A stretch of 35,889 bases of DNA from Deltaproteobacteria bacterium ADurb.Bin151 (GTDB lineage Bacteria > Desulfobacterota > Syntrophia > Syntrophales > Smithellaceae). Made by a program: the position numbers and the translations under genes. Where the stretch lies: contig MWDG01000025.1 in NCBI GenBank assembly GCA_002070455.1, forward strand, positions 1-35,889, given 5' to 3'. The first letter of the stretch is position 1. Each line of letters opens with the position of its first letter. Below are positions 18,184 to 28,929 of the stretch, piece after piece. The notes beneath the pieces were generated by a model that worked only from the letters and a program-made list of their open reading frames with translations, was not told where the DNA came from and did no database searches.

Positions 18184-19623
18184 TCATGGATACGCCTGTT
18201 TTAGCCTTCTGGCCGCAGATTCTTTTCCTATAACGGCAAATACCCTCTCCAACTCGGGGCCCTGGACTTTTCCGGTAAGCGCCGCTCTCACCGGCATAAA
18301 TAAATCCCTGCCCTTGAGCCCGGATTTTTCCCTGGCATGTTTGATTGCCGCCGTGTAGATTTCTACCGGTGATCCTACGGCAGATTCCAGATATTCACCA
18401 AAAGCGAGAACCACTTTTTTCGCGCCTGCAGAATCGAGGATCTGTGCAGCCTCAGAAGTCATCTGATACCTGCCGTCAAAAAATATTGCAATGTGTTCCC
18501 CGATATCAGCCAGTGCCGTCAATTCGTCCCTCACGGTTTCAATGACCTGCTTCATCCACGAGGGATCGAGTTTTTCCGGCTGATAACCGGCGCGGCGCAA
18601 AAAAGGCCGGAGCCTGTTTGACAAATCATCAACCGTCAGGTTTCGAATGTAAATGGCATTGAGCCAGCGGAGCTTCTCTTCATCAAAAACCGCCCCGCTT
18701 TTCGATGCACGATCCAGGGAAAACGCTTCAATCATTTCAGCAGGGGACATCACTTCACGGGCCTCGGCAAACGAACTGCCCAGAAGCGCGAGATAGTTCA
18801 CCAGCGCTGCCGGAAGATATCCCTTCATGCGGAATTCGCCAACGGACACGGAACCGTGACGTTTGCTGAGTTTGGCGTGGTCTTTGCCCAGAATCAGGCA
18901 GTGATGGGCGAACACCGGCGGTTCAAAACCGAAAGCCCGGTAAAGCATGATCTGCAGGGCCGTGTTGGACAGGTGGTCTTCACCGCGGATCACGTGCGTG
19001 ATTGCCATTAAATGATCGTCGATGACCACTGCAAAGTTGTAGGCCGGCATGCCGTTGGAGCGGACGATGATGAAATCACCGATGGATTCACCTTCAAACC
19101 GGATTGATCCCCGAACCAGATCGTTGAATTCGACAGTTGTTTGTGGCACCTTAAAACGCCAGGAGGGCTTTCTGCCCTTTGCGGCCAGTGCATCACGCTC
19201 GCTGACGCTGAGGTTACGGCACTTCCCCATGTAACGTGGCATTCGCTTGCTCAATATGAGCGACTGACGCTCCTCTTCCAGTTCTTCCTCCGTGCAGTAA
19301 CAGGGGTAGACAAGATCCGCATCCATGAGCTTTTTCAGATGTTCTGTGTATAGATCGAGCCGCTCGCTCTGTTTATAAGGCCCGTACGTTCCGTCTTTTT
19401 CCGGGCCTTCATCCCAATCCAGACCCAGCCATTTCAAATCATCGACCAGACTGACCTGATAGGACACTGAACTGCGGGATTCATCCGTATCTTCTATCCG
19501 CAGGACCAGACGGCCACCGTGATGACGGGCAAACAGCCAGTTAAACAGAGCCGTACGTGCGTTTCCCACATGCAGTTCACCCGTGGGTGAAGGCGCGAAT
19601 CTTACCCTGGGCCTGTCAGCCAT
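18184..19623 (-). CDS. gltX: glutamyl-tRNA synthetase
   Basis: This 479-residue class I synthetase charges tRNA-Glu (and in many bacteria tRNA-Gln). The HIGH box is replaced by the usual GluRS form (APSPTGELHVGNART), the KMSKS loop reads AKLSKRHG near residue 250, and CYCTEEEL is in the zinc-site region. The C-terminal anticodon-binding domain is complete. The start at 19623 lies inside the end of ispDF (8-base overlap), so they are coupled. Whether it is discriminating or non-discriminating cannot be read by eye; no second gltX is in the window. Confidence 0.97.
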   Translation of the reverse strand: MADRPRVRFAPSPTGELHVGNARTALFNWLFARHHGGRLVLRIEDTDESRSSVSYQVSLVDDLKWLGLDWDEGPEKDGTYGPYKQSERLDLYTEHLKKLMDADLVYPCYCTEEELEEERQSLILSKRMPRYMGKCRNLSVSERDALAAKGRKPSWRFKVPQTTVEFNDLVRGSIRFEGESIGDFIIVRSNGMPAYNFAVVIDDHLMAITHVIRGEDHLSNTALQIMLYRAFGFEPPVFAHHCLILGKDHAKLSKRHGSVSVGEFRMKGYLPAALVNYLALLGSSFAEAREVMSPAEMIEAFSLDRASKSGAVFDEEKLRWLNAIYIRNLTVDDLSNRLRPFLRRAGYQPEKLDPSWMKQVIETVRDELTALADIGEHIAIFFDGRYQMTSEAAQILDSAGAKKVVLAFGEYLESAVGSPVEIYTAAIKHAREKSGLKGRDLFMPVRAALTGKVQGPELERVFAVIGKESAARRLKQAYP

Positions 19624-20803
19624 TCTTCATCCTTTCCATGCCGGTGGCTATGGCCAGCACGGCCACACCCTCCCCTCGTCCCACAAATCCCATGCCTTCA
19701 TTTGTTTTGGCCTTGATATTGACGGCTGGCTCCGGAATATGCAAAGTTCCGGCAATATTGGACGCCATGGCTCCGGCGTAGGGCGCCAGTTTCGGTTTTT
19801 CCATCATGACCGTTACATCAATATTATTGACACTGAATCCATTTGCCGTGATCATCTGCCAAACCCGTTCCAAAAGAATAAGGCTTGAGATATTTTTATA
19901 AGCCTCATCCGTATCCGGAAAATGCCTGCCGATATCCCCCGCCCCGGCCATGCCTAAAAGCGCGTCGCAGACGGCGTGAAGCACGACATCCGCATCTGAA
20001 TGTCCCTGCAGGCCATGATCGAAGGGAATTTCAACTCCTCCGAGAATGAGCTTCCTGCCCGGTGAAAACCGATGGCTGTCATACCCCAGTCCACTGCGGA
20101 CAGTCATTTTTTCTTTTCTTTTATTCTCCATCAGTGCTTCCGCCATCAACAAATCTTCGGGGGTTGTGATTTTGATGTTTTCATGCGAACCGGTAACCAT
20201 TCGGACTTTAACGCCGGTTCGCTCAACGAGGGACGCATCGTCTGTCCCATAGAAATGATCTCTTTGGGCTTCCGCATAAGCCCGGCACAAGACATCATAC
20301 CTGAAAGCCTGAGGGGTTTGCGTTTGCCACAGATTTTGACGCGGCAAAGTTGTTGTCACAATGTTTTCGACGGTTGTCTCCTTGATCGTGTCTTTGGCCG
20401 GAACCCCAATGGAGGCGGCGCCGTATTCAGCCGCCGCGGCAACGACCCGTCGGACCATATCCGGGGTAACAAAAGGACGAACGCCATCGTGCACAATCAC
20501 AACGTCACATGTTCCGGGAACCGCCTGCAGACCGTTCCGTACCGAATCCTGGCGCTCCCTGCCTCCGGCTACAATAGATATTACTTTTGTCAAACCGTAT
20601 TTTTCAACAATCTGCTTTTGGACGGACGCTTCATCTTCCTTCGGCACCACCAGAACAACAGCAGAAACCATTTCCGTCATCTGAAACACACGGAGCGTGT
20701 GAACCAGCATGGGCGATGAATCCAGCAGAAGATACTGCTTGGCAACCTCAAGCCCCAGTCTTTTTCCTGCACCGCCTGCTGGAATGATTGCTACTGTTTT
20801 CAT
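19616..20803 (-). CDS. ispDF: bifunctional IspD/IspF of the MEP isoprenoid pathway
   Basis: The start at 20803 has AGGA seven bases upstream; the frame is open further but unlike any IspD. Residues about 1-230 are IspD, which makes CDP-methylerythritol: AIIPAGGAGKRLG, PVKDT-like PAKDTIKE, and TQTPQAF. Residues about 232-395 are IspF, which makes the cyclodiphosphate: GLGYDSHRF, LGGVEIPFDHGLQGHSDADV with the metal-binding Asp and His, and KTNEGMGFVG. Separate ispD and ispF are the commoner arrangement; the fusion is known in Alpha-, Delta- and Epsilonproteobacteria. It overlaps gltX and follows the PIN/TRAM gene after a GC-rich hairpin. Confidence 0.96.
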   Translation of the reverse strand: MKTVAIIPAGGAGKRLGLEVAKQYLLLDSSPMLVHTLRVFQMTEMVSAVVLVVPKEDEASVQKQIVEKYGLTKVISIVAGGRERQDSVRNGLQAVPGTCDVVIVHDGVRPFVTPDMVRRVVAAAAEYGAASIGVPAKDTIKETTVENIVTTTLPRQNLWQTQTPQAFRYDVLCRAYAEAQRDHFYGTDDASLVERTGVKVRMVTGSHENIKITTPEDLLMAEALMENKRKEKMTVRSGLGYDSHRFSPGRKLILGGVEIPFDHGLQGHSDADVVLHAVCDALLGMAGAGDIGRHFPDTDEAYKNISSLILLERVWQMITANGFSVNNIDVTVMMEKPKLAPYAGAMASNIAGTLHIPEPAVNIKAKTNEGMGFVGRGEGVAVLAIATGMERMKNG

Positions 20804-20820
20804 GGTGATTCCTATAATGA

Positions 20821-20854
20821 AACGGGCCCGGAGAATCATTTTCCCGGGCCCGTT
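20821..20854 (-). promoter_or_regulatory. strong GC hairpin between the PIN/TRAM gene and ispDF
   Basis: A perfect 11-bp stem (AACGGGCCCGG with CCGGGCCCGTT) and a 12-base loop sit 18 bases before the ispDF start. There is no T-run on either strand, so it is not a classical terminator. It may stabilise the upstream mRNA end or restrain translation of ispDF. Confidence 0.75.
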
Positions 20855-20901
20855 CGCCAAAGGTATTTTCTTTCCGGCCAAAAAGACAGCAGAAATATCC
20901 G

Positions 20902-23592: not shown

Positions 23593-24233
23593 CCACTCTC
23601 CCCGATCAAACTGACAAAGCGAACGCCGCCCAGGTCTTCCTTTTTCATTTCGGAAGGATTGTCCGCAGATCGCGTCAGTTTATACAAAGTCTGAACGTCA
23701 CGGCTGCCGACCGGAACGACAAACCTGCCTCCCGGGGCAAGCTGTTCCGCCAGAAACGAAGGAATTTGCGGAGTTGCGGCAGTGATAATGATCGCGTCAA
23801 AAGGTGCTTCCTCTCTCCAGCCGTAAGAACCATCTCCCACACGAATAGCGACGTTGTAGCAGTTGAGCCTGTCCAGAATTTTTCTTGCCCGCGTGGCCAG
23901 CGAAGCCACCCGTTCGATGGAAAAAACCCGGTCAGCCAGTTTTGCTAAAATCGCCGTCTGGTAACCTGAACCTGTTCCGATCTCCAGAACGCGTTCCCGC
24001 CCCTTCAACTCCAGAGCTTCTGTCATTAAAGCCACGATATACGGCTGGGAAATGGTCTGGTGTTCTCCGATGGGCAGCGGATTATCGTTGTATGCCTGAT
24101 CAATTAAACCTTCATCCACGAAAAGATGCCGCGGGACGGTTTCCATCACTTTCAAAACACGGGTATCGCTGATTGAACGGGCACGGATCTGCGTCTCGAC
24201 CATCCGCATGCGCTGCTTTTTGTATCTATCCAT
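23580..24233 (-). CDS. pcm: protein-L-isoaspartate O-methyltransferase
   Basis: The ATG at 24233 overlaps the previous gene's TGA by one base. The 217-residue enzyme repairs isoaspartyl residues with SAM. It shows PRHLFV, then NDNPLPIGEHQTISQPYIVALMTE (family signature), the SAM motif VLEIGTGSGYQTAILA, and APFDAIIITAATPQIP. Length and motif order are standard. It sits between an unknown coiled-coil gene and the NlpD-like gene in one transcript. Confidence 0.96.
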   Translation of the reverse strand: MDRYKKQRMRMVETQIRARSISDTRVLKVMETVPRHLFVDEGLIDQAYNDNPLPIGEHQTISQPYIVALMTEALELKGRERVLEIGTGSGYQTAILAKLADRVFSIERVASLATRARKILDRLNCYNVAIRVGDGSYGWREEAPFDAIIITAATPQIPSFLAEQLAPGGRFVVPVGSRDVQTLYKLTRSADNPSEMKKEDLGGVRFVSLIGESGWKS

Positions 24234-24625
24234 CAAATAGCCTGTATTTTTTTCTTTTTCGGAGGGATCTGATAGAGTTGTCGAACCATTTCATGCCTTC
24301 TGAGCCCCAGGGCTTCACGAGTCACGATAAAATAATAATACTGCAGTTCAGCTTTTTGACAGGCCGTATTGTACTGATCGATAATGGTGTTGATTTCTTC
24401 CAATATCGTCACTTGATCCGTCAGGTCCTTCCGGCGGGACACATCATTCCGATGCGTCCGCAGCTCATTCATTTTCTCCTCAATCCGCTGATTAATCCTG
24501 ATCACCTGCTGCAGTGCATTTTCCACAGCAAAGCCCGCCCGGCTCAAAACGGCCGCTCGTTCCCGCAGAAGATCTTCGCACAAAATATCATGCACATCCT
24601 GTTTTAACGCACTGCCTATCTGCAT
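24233..24625 (-). CDS. hypothetical coiled-coil protein
   Basis: I do not recognise this protein. The start at 24625 follows GAAGGAT, giving 130 residues; it is charged, helix-rich and probably a coiled coil from about residue 25 to 90 (NALQQVIRINQRIEEKMNELRTHRND). It has no signal peptide or membrane helix. The C-terminus ends with PPKKKKIQAI. Its stop overlaps the pcm start, so it is translated with pcm and the NlpD-like gene. Its position suggests a shared condition of expression, not a known function. Confidence 0.7.
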   Translation of the reverse strand: MQIGSALKQDVHDILCEDLLRERAAVLSRAGFAVENALQQVIRINQRIEEKMNELRTHRNDVSRRKDLTDQVTILEEINTIIDQYNTACQKAELQYYYFIVTREALGLRRHEMVRQLYQIPPKKKKIQAI

Positions 24626-24797
24626 GTTAAATCCTTCAAAAATTTCTTTAAAATTCTTATCATTGAAGGGAAGAATTTTCAAGTTTAAAGGCCTTTTCAA
24701 CCACAAAACAGAATTTTTCCCCTTTACACTTTGGGATTATTTCGTTAGATAGTCATGAAATAAAATAAAGACTTCAAACGGATAAACTGGTGTTTTC

Positions 24798-26381
24798 ATG
24801 GGTCGTGATGTAAATTTTCCAATGTCAGGCGCCGTCTGCAGCGCCTATTCCCGCAACGAAGAAGACGAAACGCTCTCCCCGCTGGTTCTCGTGGATCAGA
24901 ACATGGCCCCCGCAGGACGCATCCGATCAGGTGATTCCGTTATTTTTTACAACATCCGGGGCGAACGCGAAATCGAATTGACCCGCAGCCTGACCGAAAA
25001 CACCTTCCGGGAATTCCCCGTTGATCCCAACCTTGCCGTAAATTTTGCAACCATGATTGAGTATCAAAAAGGGTTGAACGTCCAGGTCGCGTTTGAACCC
25101 CTGGGAACTCTTTCCGATACCCTGAGCGATGTCATTGCCGCTCACGGGTTGACCCAGGCAAAAATCACAGAAGCGGAAAAAGCCGTTCATGTCGGTTATT
25201 TTTTCAACGGCAAGAAAGCCGATCTTTTGCCCGGAGAGGAAAGAATCATTATTCCAACACGCAAAGACGTCAAACTGTTTGATGAAGCTCCGGAAATGTC
25301 CATCGCAGACATCACCCGCACGGCCATCGCCAAAATCAAAGATCCAGACTGTAATTTCATTTTGGTGAATTTCCCCAATGTGGATGTTGTAGGCCATATT
25401 GAAAATGAACCGGCCGTTCTTCGCGCAATTCAGGCAGTCGACCGGCACACCGGTCTCCTCATTGACGAGGCACTGCGACAGGAAATTGCGGTGATTGTTA
25501 CAGCCGATCATGGAACGGTTGAAAAATGGCTCTATCCTGACGGCGGTGTGGACACCGGACACACGGACAGTCCCGTTCCGTTTCTCGTTCTTCACCCCGA
25601 CAGAGAATTGACGCTGAAGGCTCAGGGATCCCTGATCGATGTCGCCCCAACGGTTCTGGATCTCTTCGGTATGCCTGCACCCCCGACGATGACAGGGGTT
25701 TCGCTTCTTGAACAAAGCAAGAATTCCTGCGCGCCTGTAAAGCGATTATTGTTTTTGATTCTTGACGGGTGGGGGCTTTGTGAAAACACGAAAGGCAATC
25801 TGATTGCCTGCGCCGAAACACCGGTCATGGATAAACTGATGAAGAGTTACCCGTCAGCACAGCTTTCCGCATCGGGCGTTGACGTGGGACTTCCGCCGAA
25901 AACCGTCGGCAATTCAGAAGCGGGACATATGCACATTGGCGCGGGACGTCGTATCTATTCCGACCGCCTCCGTATTGATGAATCCATCGCAAACAGTGAT
26001 TTTTATCAAAACCCGGCTTTTCAAAATACCATGAAACTGGCCAACCAAAAAGGCGGTTCTGTGCACCTGATGGGGATTGTTTCCTTCTTCAGTTCTCACG
26101 GCTCCATCGAACATCTTTTCGCCTTGATGGATATGGCGAAACAACTTCAGGTCTCCCGGCTTTTCATTCACTCTATGCTGGGCAGACGCGGCGAACAGGC
26201 TCAAAGCGGAGCCCGTTATATTCAGCAGGTGGAAGAAAAATGCCTGTCATTGCAACTGGGACAGGTCGTATCCGTCATTGGCCGCTACTGGTCGATGGAC
26301 CGCGAAGAAAACTGGGACCGGATTGAAAAGACATACCGAATGCTTGTTTACGGGGAAGGAAATGCGGTTCCCGGAAAGTGA
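24798..26381 (+). CDS. circularly permuted cofactor-independent phosphoglycerate mutase
   Basis: All parts of an iPGM (alkaline-phosphatase superfamily) are here, but in swapped order. Residues 10-305 match the usual C-terminal part: GDSVIFYNIRGER (Arg54, Arg57), EAEK (Lys128), NFPNVDVVGH (Asp196, His200), TADHG (Asp237, His238), TGHTDSPVPF (His255). Residues 315-527 match the usual N-terminal part: FLILDGWG (Asp323), GNSEAGHMHIGAG (Ser373), His434, then GRYWSMDR (Arg496, Arg502). The metal ligands are complete. Of the substrate site, Arg464 of the GRD motif is kept, its Asp is Gly, and the GG of GGVHSH is FF. A TAA stop in frame five codons before the ATG fixes the start. The new ends fall in one loop of the transferase domain. 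Lacks an obvious ribosome-binding site. Confidence 0.92.
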   Translation: MGRDVNFPMSGAVCSAYSRNEEDETLSPLVLVDQNMAPAGRIRSGDSVIFYNIRGEREIELTRSLTENTFREFPVDPNLAVNFATMIEYQKGLNVQVAFEPLGTLSDTLSDVIAAHGLTQAKITEAEKAVHVGYFFNGKKADLLPGEERIIIPTRKDVKLFDEAPEMSIADITRTAIAKIKDPDCNFILVNFPNVDVVGHIENEPAVLRAIQAVDRHTGLLIDEALRQEIAVIVTADHGTVEKWLYPDGGVDTGHTDSPVPFLVLHPDRELTLKAQGSLIDVAPTVLDLFGMPAPPTMTGVSLLEQSKNSCAPVKRLLFLILDGWGLCENTKGNLIACAETPVMDKLMKSYPSAQLSASGVDVGLPPKTVGNSEAGHMHIGAGRRIYSDRLRIDESIANSDFYQNPAFQNTMKLANQKGGSVHLMGIVSFFSSHGSIEHLFALMDMAKQLQVSRLFIHSMLGRRGEQAQSGARYIQQVEEKCLSLQLGQVVSVIGRYWSMDREENWDRIEKTYRMLVYGEGNAVPGK

Positions 26382-26387
26382 GACAAA

Positions 26388-26918
26388 ATGAAGTCCACAT
26401 TCAATCAGACAATCATTGAACTGGTAACAGGTGACATCACCGAGGAAGAAACGGATGCCATTGTCAACGCCGCCAACAGCCGTTTAGCCGGGGGGGCCGG
26501 TGTGGACGGCGCCATCCACCGGGCCGGCGGACCGGCAATTATGAAGGAATGCCGTCAGATCGGAGGATGCCCGACCGGCGAAGCTGTCATGACAACCGGT
26601 GGCAACCTCAAGGCGCGTTATGTTATTCATACCGTAGGACCCATCTACCGCGGCGGCACGCAAAATGAGGCCCGGCTGCTTTCTTCGGCTTATCAAAACA
26701 GCCTGAAACTGGCCTGCCGGAAAGGCTTGCAAAGCATCTCTTTTCCGGCGATAAGCTGCGGAGTCTACGGCTATCCGATTCACGAAGCCGCACATCTGGC
26801 ATTAAAAACGTGTATTGAATTTGCCCGTGAGAACACCGGGATTCAACTCATCCGCCATGTTTTATTTGATCAGCGGATATATGCTGTTTTTGCTCAAGAA
26901 TTCAAAAAAATCATCTAA
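26388..26918 (+). CDS. macro-domain ADP-ribose hydrolase
   Basis: The 176-residue protein is a single macro domain of the YmdB/Af1521/MacroD group. Signature parts are VTGDITEEETDAIVNAANS, LAGGAGVDGAIHRAGG, and ISFPAISCGVYGYP, with the phosphate-binding Gly-rich loops intact. Such proteins remove O-acetyl-ADP-ribose or mono-ADP-ribose from protein. It starts six bases after the mutase stop, so it is almost surely cotranscribed with it. The pairing with glycolysis is unusual and its meaning unknown. Confidence 0.93.
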   Translation: MKSTFNQTIIELVTGDITEEETDAIVNAANSRLAGGAGVDGAIHRAGGPAIMKECRQIGGCPTGEAVMTTGGNLKARYVIHTVGPIYRGGTQNEARLLSSAYQNSLKLACRKGLQSISFPAISCGVYGYPIHEAAHLALKTCIEFARENTGIQLIRHVLFDQRIYAVFAQEFKKII

Positions 26919-26932
26919 CAACCGGTCTGTCC

Positions 26933-28906
26933 ATGAATGTAAAGCCGACTTACGCAGAGCTTGAACAGGAAATCGCTAAATTAAAAGAAACCCTGCACGA
27001 GCAGAGCAGGCTTGAGAACCAGTGCCGTAAACTCGTTGATTCGACCAGCGACTCCCTGTATATTGTTGATGGAAACGGGCGCTACTTCTTCATGAATCAA
27101 ATTCATGCACAGCGGCTGAATATACCGGAAACCGGCTATACCGGCCTTTCTTATAAAGATGTTCATTCCCCCCAGCAAAGCGAACAGTTTGAAGCCAGAG
27201 TAAAGACCGTCTTTGAAACAGGCATCGCGATTCACGACGAGTATCAGCATCCGGAAGACGGCGGATATCTGCTTCGTACCTTCAGCCCGGTTAAAGATTC
27301 CACCGACCCGATGAAAATTACTGCTGTATCCGTTGTATCCAGAGACATCACAAAGATCAAAAAATTGGAAGAAGCTCTGGAAAAGTCCGAGGAAAAGTAT
27401 CGTCAGCTGATTGAATATTCCAGCGAGGCCATTTTTATTGTCACCAACGGAAAAATCAGCTACGCCAATAACAGCACACAAAAAATGATCGGTTATCCGC
27501 TTGAAGATCTGAAACTGATTTCTTTTATCAACCTGATGATCTCCGAAGACCGGGAAATGGTCTTTAACCGCCAGAAAGCCATCCTTCAGGGATACGAATC
27601 AGCAAATCATTACACATTCCGGATTGAAACCAAAGAAGGATCAACCATCTGGGTGGAGGCAGACAGTGTGGCAATCCAGTGGGAAGGCGTAACATCCACG
27701 CTGAACTTCATGCGCGACATCACAAAGCAGAAAAAAACGGAAACGAGACTGTTGCAGGCCCAGAAAATGGAATCCATTGGGACCCTCGCGGGCGGCATCG
27801 CTCATGATTTCAATAATCTTTTGATGGGTATCCAGGGACACACTTCCCTGTCTCTGCTGAAGCTGAATAAAAATGACATCCACTATGAGCATCTTTATGA
27901 ACACATCAAGACGATTGAAACCCTGGTTACAAGCGGAGCCAACCTGACCAAACAATTGCTCGGTTTTGCCCGGGGCGGCAAATACGAAGTCAAACGGGCG
28001 GACCTGAATACCTTAATTGAGAAAACATCGAAAACCATCGGCCGCACGAAAAAAGAAATCCGTATCCATCGCAACCTTGAAAAAGACCTTTGGCCGACAG
28101 ATGTCGATCAGGGACAGATCGAACAGGTTCTCCTGAACCTGTTCGTCAATGCCTGGCAGGCAATGCCCGACGGTGGCGATCTTTACATTGAAACAAAGAA
28201 CATCCTTCTGGACGAAGATCGATTTAAAGCCTATGGTAAAAGAAAAGGCCGGTATGTCAAAATCTCCGTAACGGATACAGGAATCGGGATGGATGAAAAA
28301 ACAAAGGAAAGAATTTTTGAACCATTTTTTACAACGAAGGAGATGGGACACGGCACAGGACTGGGGCTGGCCTCGGTTTATGGCATCATTAAAAACCACA
28401 ACGGTTTCATCAATGTCTACTCGGAAAAAGGCAAGGGGACAACCTTCAATATTTATCTTCCCGCCTCCACACCCGATGATCAAAAAGATGAAGACCGGGA
28501 ATTGGACGTTGCCGGCGACATCCTGTGTACGGAGACGGTTCTGCTGGTTGATGATGAAACCATGGTGCTTAACGTGGCCAGCGACATGATGAGAACCATG
28601 GGTTACACGGTCATCACTGCTTCCGACGGTTCCACGGCAGTGAACCTATACAGAGAAAATCATCAACGGATTGATCTCGTCATGCTCGATATGGTGATGC
28701 CGGACATGAGTGGCTCAGATGTCTTCGATGAAATAAAAAAGATCAACCCTCAGGCCAAAGTATTGCTGTCCAGCGGTTACAGTTTAAACGGACAGGCCAG
28801 CAGAATTATGGAACGCGGCTGTGACGGTTTCATTCAAAAACCGTTCACACTGGATGAAATATCCACCCTGCTACGGCAGATTCTGGGACAGTCCCGAAAA
28901 AAATAA
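26933..28906 (+). CDS. soluble hybrid histidine kinase (PAS-PAS-HK-REC)
   Basis: The 657-residue protein starts with a short coiled coil, then two PAS domains (about 33-140 and 150-270), a HisKA domain with His291 in GGIAHDFNN, and a HATPase domain. The N, G1, F and G2 boxes are intact (NLFVNAWQAM, DTGIGM, FEPFFTTK, GHGTGLGLASV). A receiver domain with phosphorylatable Asp586 (VMLDMVMPDMSG) ends it. There is no membrane helix, so it senses a cytosolic signal. No response regulator with an output domain is nearby. It follows the macro-domain gene after 14 bases, and a terminator closes the operon. Confidence 0.95.
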   Translation: MNVKPTYAELEQEIAKLKETLHEQSRLENQCRKLVDSTSDSLYIVDGNGRYFFMNQIHAQRLNIPETGYTGLSYKDVHSPQQSEQFEARVKTVFETGIAIHDEYQHPEDGGYLLRTFSPVKDSTDPMKITAVSVVSRDITKIKKLEEALEKSEEKYRQLIEYSSEAIFIVTNGKISYANNSTQKMIGYPLEDLKLISFINLMISEDREMVFNRQKAILQGYESANHYTFRIETKEGSTIWVEADSVAIQWEGVTSTLNFMRDITKQKKTETRLLQAQKMESIGTLAGGIAHDFNNLLMGIQGHTSLSLLKLNKNDIHYEHLYEHIKTIETLVTSGANLTKQLLGFARGGKYEVKRADLNTLIEKTSKTIGRTKKEIRIHRNLEKDLWPTDVDQGQIEQVLLNLFVNAWQAMPDGGDLYIETKNILLDEDRFKAYGKRKGRYVKISVTDTGIGMDEKTKERIFEPFFTTKEMGHGTGLGLASVYGIIKNHNGFINVYSEKGKGTTFNIYLPASTPDDQKDEDRELDVAGDILCTETVLLVDDETMVLNVASDMMRTMGYTVITASDGSTAVNLYRENHQRIDLVMLDMVMPDMSGSDVFDEIKKINPQAKVLLSSGYSLNGQASRIMERGCDGFIQKPFTLDEISTLLRQILGQSRKK

Positions 28907-28907
28907 T

Positions 28908-28929
28908 CCGGGCCGACCCGGCGGTTTTT
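28908..28929 (+). terminator. intrinsic terminator after the histidine kinase
   Basis: CCGGG and CCCGG pair around a CCGA loop, followed by CGGTTTTTG, two bases after the kinase stop. It ends the mutase-macro-kinase operon. Confidence 0.65.

Follow-up and report, generated by a model that had tools for sequence, protein, structure and literature searches.

How is a gene to be understood that encodes what looks like a complete glycolytic enzyme with its two halves in exchanged order? Cofactor-independent phosphoglycerate mutase (iPGM) is a textbook enzyme of glycolysis in which a second domain is inserted in the first and two hinges open and close the molecule. In the 35,889-nucleotide stretch of Deltaproteobacteria bacterium ADurb.Bin151 that was analysed here (contig MWDG01000025.1, positions 1 to 35,889, referred to as the window), the product of the gene at 24798-26381 is, judged by its sequence, a natural circular permutation of the iPGM fold. 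The reading that we favour, and hold to be rather probable, is that this permuted relative folds as a two-domain enzyme and is likely to move phosphate by means of Ser373 and a pair of metals, with a phosphorylated hydroxy acid other than 2- or 3-phosphoglycerate as the likely substrate.

The exchanged order is most directly seen in a phmmer comparison with the iPGM 1EJJ, in which two collinear blocks appear in swapped positions: residues 15-304 of the query correspond to 1EJJ 222-509 and residues 316-522 to 1EJJ 5-211, with scores of 169.6 and 187.1 bits that are far beyond chance. The first block was lengthened by VIA-align, which paired residues 6 to 305 of the structural model with residues 213 to 510 of 1O98; sequential structure aligners covered one half of the permuted protein only. 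The new ends lie at about residues 211 and 213 of 1EJJ, near-adjacent positions inside the transferase domain, and in an alignment of 124 proteins the rotated permuted sequences align end to end with canonical iPGM. The canonical order from N- to C-terminus, i.e. the start of the phosphatase domain, the whole transferase domain and the rest of the phosphatase domain, is not that of the protein encoded at 24798-26381. An earlier note on this DNA, made from the letters alone, had already described the C-terminal part of an iPGM followed by its N-terminal part, with new termini that are contiguous in the transferase domain, and had proposed a rotated alignment of both halves; all three points hold, as 1EJJ 5-211 and 1O98 213-510 are covered between them. 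The linker that it saw between the old ends is also present, but occupies about residues 306-315 and not 290-316. This bridge of about ten residues is conserved in neither length nor sequence among family members, which is what one would expect of a joint that takes no part in catalysis. At one locus (L038:8001-9704) the linker between the halves is far longer than at other loci, with the frame still open. At the start of the window gene (24798-24824) both M1 and M9 could serve as start codon, and at least one relative (P0052) begins at the methionine equivalent to M9. The coordinates are collected in Table 1, where the domain bounds of the permuted protein are in part our assumption.

Table 1. 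Features of the permuted gene and of the genes that follow it, in coordinates of the window.
Feature	Position	Strand	Remark
Permuted iPGM-like gene	24798..26381	+	527 amino acids, ATG start, single open frame
Old C-terminal part, residues 1-305	24798..25712	+	second transferase half, then most of the phosphatase domain
D196 and H200	25383..25397	+	1EJJ D403, H407; invariant in 75/75 permuted and 49/49 canonical proteins
D237 and H238	25506..25511	+	1EJJ D444, H445; invariant
H255	25560..25562	+	1EJJ H462; invariant
Linker, residues 306-315	25713..25742	+	old C-terminus to old N-terminus; length and sequence vary
Old N-terminal part, residues 316-527	25743..26378	+	start of the phosphatase domain, then first transferase half
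D323	25764..25766	+	1EJJ D12; invariant
S373	25914..25916	+	1EJJ S62; invariant
SFFSSHG loop, residues 429-435	26082..26102	+	for canonical S-D/P-G-G-V-H-S/A; SSHG in 241/241 (matches listed and window)
GRRGE, residues 462-466	26181..26195	+	for canonical DGRD(T/V); 241/241 (matches listed and window)
Macro-domain gene	26388..26918	+	6 bases 3' of the permuted gene
PAS-histidine kinase-receiver hybrid gene	26933..28906	+	3' of the macro-domain gene; less conserved neighbour
Terminator-like hairpin	28908..28921	+	3' of the kinase gene; weak, from a consensus match alone

A swapped gene may be an artefact of two neighbouring genes, of an assembly joint near 25730 or of fused fragments. The chance of this is negligible, as the gene is one open frame and independent assemblies share the order. 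A first protein search listed at least 120 relatives over 98-100% of the permuted query with identities down to 63%, and a second, profile-based search listed at least 120 further relatives with identities of 48-59%. The 5982 hits counted in the second search may include canonical enzymes and are not taken here as the size of the family. The permuted order is found together with the GRRGE and SSHG motifs in 241 of 241 proteins, i.e. the window protein and 240 among the matches listed; because both lists consist of top matches ranked by their likeness to permuted queries, forms unlike the query could not show among them. A genome scan with two family-typical peptide patterns, limited to one genome per species, took the best 80 of 91 relatives to 76 loci. 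Two loci (L069 and L070) were dropped as incomplete, partial loci without both halves stayed unclassified, and each sequence was counted a single time, whether it recurred as a re-fetched locus (L080-L111) or as an identical copy. This left 75 distinct, near-complete permuted proteins, including copies from the genome samples described below, which were compared with 49 canonical proteins drawn only from the samples of the window's phylum and of the phylum of genome G038 and from the own genome.

All 75 genomic copies, nearly all of them from other assemblies, have the permuted order, and one lies in a genome that consists of a single contig (G416). The search of other genomes for the same order that the earlier note had called for has therefore succeeded. 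The loci span Smithella, Syntrophus, Syntrophaceae, Chloroflexi, Thermoflexales, Zixibacteria, Aminicenantes, WOR-3, Armatimonadetes and Zipacnadia, and the ratio of nonsynonymous to synonymous substitution rates was 0.07-0.24 in each of the ten pairs for which it was computed.

A quick maximum-likelihood tree was made from the rotated sequences of 52 permuted and 45 canonical proteins that passed an identity filter. In this tree a branch supported at 100 has all permuted proteins on one side, and their stem is 1.03 changes per site long, a pattern that fits a single origin of the family. The permuted clade stands beside iPGMs of the Chloroflexota sample (support 90), a placement that is unsure because the root is one very long row, the canonical iPGM of the own genome, and the sampling of canonical proteins is limited. 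The own-genome protein (G000:C23:5682-7334, L002, 551 amino acids) belongs to the same superfamily and has the canonical order; with an identity of 0.32 to the permuted protein after rotation and its very long branch, it is a member of another subfamily and not a near parent. Such a swap usually arises when a gene is duplicated in tandem and the outer ends are then lost, and the permuted gene is assumed to have taken this route.

Structure prediction is consistent with one folded unit. The whole protein was modelled with a mean pLDDT (predicted local distance difference test) of 90.3 and a pTM (predicted template modelling score) of 0.86, as compared with 64.9 and 0.65 when the second half was modelled by itself. 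By this prediction the permuted protein forms a single enzyme of two domains, and the packing of the halves that had been proposed as a check on the permutation holds at the level of the model. Family models place the protein near iPGM/GpmI (1EJJ, TIGR01307, PF06415 and PF01676), with which it shares the Pfam domains, the serine nucleophile, the metal ligands, six arginines and lysines and the histidine of the substrate site; once rotated, permuted proteins are about 40% identical to canonical ones (median over pairs 0.398). PF06415 (iPGM_N) and PF01676 (Metalloenzyme) are both over their cut-offs with 177.6 and 187.6 bits, while the cut-off of NF003897 is missed (382.8 vs 862 bits). The differences from iPGM/GpmI are the swapped halves with a cut inside the transferase domain, GRRGE in place of DGRD, FSSH in place of GGVH, and 11 columns that are fixed differently. 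Archaeal-type ApgM (TIGR00306) has a metalloenzyme fold as in iPGM, but is a separate gene in the carrier genomes, and its model is not reached by the permuted protein (35.8 vs 320 bits). Nor is the model of phosphopentomutase DeoB (TIGR01696; 3M7V) reached, at 18.9 vs 341.2 bits; the cap domain of DeoB differs from that of iPGM.

All 14 active-site equivalents that were checked (1EJJ D12, S62, H123, R153, R185, R191, R261, R264, K336, D403, H407, D444, H445 and H462) are invariant in 75/75 permuted and 49/49 canonical proteins. We take D196, H200, D237, H238, H255 and D323 to be metal ligands and S373 the nucleophile, and 1EJJ H123, R153, R185, R191, R261, R264 and K336 to be the binders of phosphate and carboxylate. 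The seven ligands named in the earlier note (Asp196, His200, Asp237, His238, His255, Asp323 and Ser373) are therefore all kept, and its observation that the aspartate of the GRD motif is glycine was correct as well: 1EJJ D154 corresponds to G465, which is glycine in 75/75 permuted proteins where 49/49 canonical ones have aspartate. The same exchange with the same counts is found at 1EJJ D151 (G462), and 1EJJ G152 has become arginine (R463) in all 75, with Arg153 kept as Arg464. Glutamate at the position of E466 occurs in 4 of the 49 canonical enzymes. In the other loop, the two phenylalanines do not replace the two glycines of GGVHSH, as had been proposed, but D119-G120, since the ungapped alignment pairs D119-G120-G121-V122-H123 with F430-F431-S432-S433-H434.

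Eighty-four columns are at least 95% fixed in both groups; the residue agrees in 73 of them, which speaks for common descent with canonical iPGM, and differs in 11. Ten of the 11 switched columns are no more than two residues away from a ligand, compared with 12 of 59 agreeing non-ligand columns (Fisher p 1.5e-5), and eight of the 11 fall in the transferase domain, the bounds of which are presumed here. Across the alignment the chemistry side of the active site is kept and the acceptor side rebuilt, and by comparison of residues the permutation is shown to be strictly linked to the changed active site.

From the invariant metal ligands we infer catalysis through a phosphoserine intermediate. 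Three observations suggest a paralogous phosphotransferase that acts on a new substrate: Asp154 and Asp151 are lost and Arg463 and Glu466 gained in the glycerate-binding loops, the other switched columns adjoin ligands, and another phosphoglycerate mutase is present in nearly every carrier of the window's class (see below). In such a mechanism the two domains would close on a phosphorylated hydroxy acid, the phosphate would be taken onto Ser373 at the metal pair and then returned to an acceptor held by the set of arginines and histidine. With Asp151 and Asp154 lost and Arg463 gained, the acceptor would be other than glycerate and perhaps more acidic.

Several points weigh against this reading. 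The cut-off of NCBI's equivalog model TIGR01307 is passed (456.2 vs 330.65 bits), although that of NF003897 is missed, as given above. The role of Asp154 is one that we presume. Glutamates have been gained near ligands (E58, E202 and E466), so that a more acidic substrate is not simply read from charge. Confidence in the model is among its lowest in the two rebuilt loops, with block means of 73 (residues 431-440) and 65 (461-470), and the model therefore says little on the way in which these loops bind. The neighbouring genes do not point to a single pathway. Finally, four of 43 carrier genomes (G002, G027, G036 and G038, completeness unstated) have no ApgM, dPGM or canonical iPGM over the cut-offs, and the permuted protein could still be the mutase there.

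The permuted protein may then be an ordinary 2-/3-phosphoglycerate mutase in which E466 or another residue stands in for Asp154. The invariant metal ligands and the retained equivalents of Ser62, His123, Arg153, Arg185, Arg191, Arg261, Arg264 and Lys336 would suit such an enzyme, as would the TIGR01307 match and the four genomes just named. The loss of both aspartates in every copy, the switched columns that flank the ligands and the distribution of the gene speak against it, and we regard it as unlikely, with a real chance of being right. The verdict of the earlier note that the protein is probably active thus stands for the ligands and the serine, kept in 75/75, and becomes doubtful for ordinary mutase activity because the two aspartates are lost, the glycerate loops are rebuilt and nearly all class carriers have another phosphoglycerate mutase.

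The distribution was followed in 43 carrier genomes. One is the own genome, which has a canonical-order iPGM and an ApgM besides the permuted gene, and the other 42 were selected among the 76 loci. ApgM is over its cut-off in 38 of the 43, dPGM in four and canonical iPGM in 13, with a partial copy in G005. G002, one of the four genomes without any of the three, has a partial ApgM match under the cut-off. In the order of G038, a search at E <= 1e-20 finds neither a canonical nor a permuted iPGM in 40 of 48 genomes; little therefore follows from the lack of the three mutases in G036 and G038, and there are hints of an unrecognised mutase in that order. For the samples of the window's class and of the phyla of the window, G038 and G030, a minimum completeness of 80 or 85 was asked for, as in the class scans for ApgM and canonical iPGM; the centre genomes, which are known carriers, are counted in the samples of class, order and phyla.

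In the window's class (Syntrophia) the permuted gene is present in 62 of 140 genomes, a patchy distribution that itself argues against the ordinary mutase. ApgM is found in 130/140 at E <= 1e-60 and in 127/140 over the cut-off. Another phosphoglycerate mutase is matched in 61 of the 62 class carriers, in one of them by a partial match only. For ApgM this figure is 60 of 62, of which three matches are under the cut-off as judged from best E-values and a tally (G412, G415 and G465); G465 also has dPGM and G415 canonical iPGM, which leaves G412 with its partial ApgM match alone. The carrier without any other match is G371, which is 85% complete. G467, with no ApgM at E <= 1e-60 and no iPGM of the own type, was considered as a genome with the permuted gene as sole mutase and was rejected when a dPGM of 387 bits was found. 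Replacement of canonical iPGM by the permuted form is not seen either, as the own-type canonical iPGM is matched in 48 of the 140 class genomes, i.e. 19/62 carriers and 29/78 non-carriers. Elsewhere the gene is rare, with carriers making up 9/148 genomes and one fragment in the sample of the window's phylum, 2/121 in the phylum of G038, 8/48 in its order and 5/99 in the phylum of G030. Together with the other mutases in class carriers, this rarity makes the permuted gene appear accessory and not a substitute in glycolysis.

Loss of Asp154 could also have made a phosphatase. If this residue no longer oriented the hydroxyl of the acceptor, water would hydrolyse the phosphoserine and a small acid would be dephosphorylated. 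The ligands of the phosphatase domain are intact, this domain of iPGM is structurally related to alkaline phosphatases (PMC5382265), and a histidine-phosphatase gene lies just downstream at two Chloroflexi loci. In the transferase domain, the arginines and histidine on the acceptor side show no more variation than the metal ligands do; as they have no obvious use in a mere phosphatase, we think this reading quite improbable.

The macro-domain gene directly behind the permuted gene is likely to be co-transcribed with it. Its product passes the model for O-acetyl-ADP-ribose deacetylase (217.6 vs 200 bits), and a macro match lies within 1.5 kb downstream on the same strand at 51 Syntrophia-type loci including the window, where 70 loci of all kinds have at least 700 bases downstream. 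A functional partnership in ADP-ribose metabolism is possible. A wider view would be that of a multi-phylum family which evolved once and has gone from glycolysis, with the swap and the rebuilt acceptor site arising on one branch, and which acts as a new phosphomutase or phosphotransferase, possibly on a more acidic substrate, with the macro-domain ADP-ribose enzyme as its partner in Syntrophia. This composite is put forward tentatively, at slightly less than even chances. The genes that follow in the window, for a macro-domain protein and a PAS kinase, may instead suggest, as does the loss of an otherwise invariant active-site aspartate, a sensor which binds a phosphorylated acid and has weak catalytic activity or none. 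This is very unlikely, as every metal ligand and the serine are invariant in 75/75 copies from several phyla, and only 14 loci have a kinase homologue in the 1.5 kb downstream, one of these on the opposite strand.

A natural rotation with its cut in a moving domain is evolution's own experiment on chain connectivity and domain motion, and the permuted family offers a new activity that can be tested. Databases name the permuted proteins phosphoglycerate mutase, and as the canonical active-site aspartate is glycine in every copy compared, the annotation in many genomes may be wrong. The statement in the earlier note that no natural permutation had been described in this family is uncontradicted: no report of a permuted iPGM was found in full-text searches of an open-access collection without most subscription papers, the results being judged mostly by title and the start of the abstract. 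The main text of a 2025 iPGM phylogeny built on 338 reviewed UniProt entries has no word starting with "permut" (PMC12077085). Eukaryotic glutathione synthetase is described as a naturally permuted enzyme (PMC2876114); it is unrelated to iPGM.

Among the remaining neighbours, no cluster occupies a comparable position across several phyla; the few large phylum-mixing clusters (17, 21 and 22) occur at scattered distances. A Pfam scan of 20 neighbours outside the window found the macro domain at three Syntrophia-type loci, histidine phosphatase at two Chloroflexi loci, PPK2 at one Armatimonadetes locus, a 2-hydroxyacid dehydrogenase at one Zipacnadia locus, ABC transporter parts at one Aminicenantes locus and four other families once each; five had no match. 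The two histidine-phosphatase genes (L051:9563-10186 and L053:9554-10177) lie directly 3' of the permuted gene, and their products are under the cut-off of every NCBIfam model listed, the best being the MSMEG_4193 putative phosphomutase. Upstream of the permuted gene in the window is a divergent gene of 157 amino acids without a Pfam match (24233-24706), a homologue of which is found near the permuted gene at 49 loci including the window. The isoprenoid-pathway domains IspD and IspF (YgbB) are both carried by a single gene at 19616-20881.
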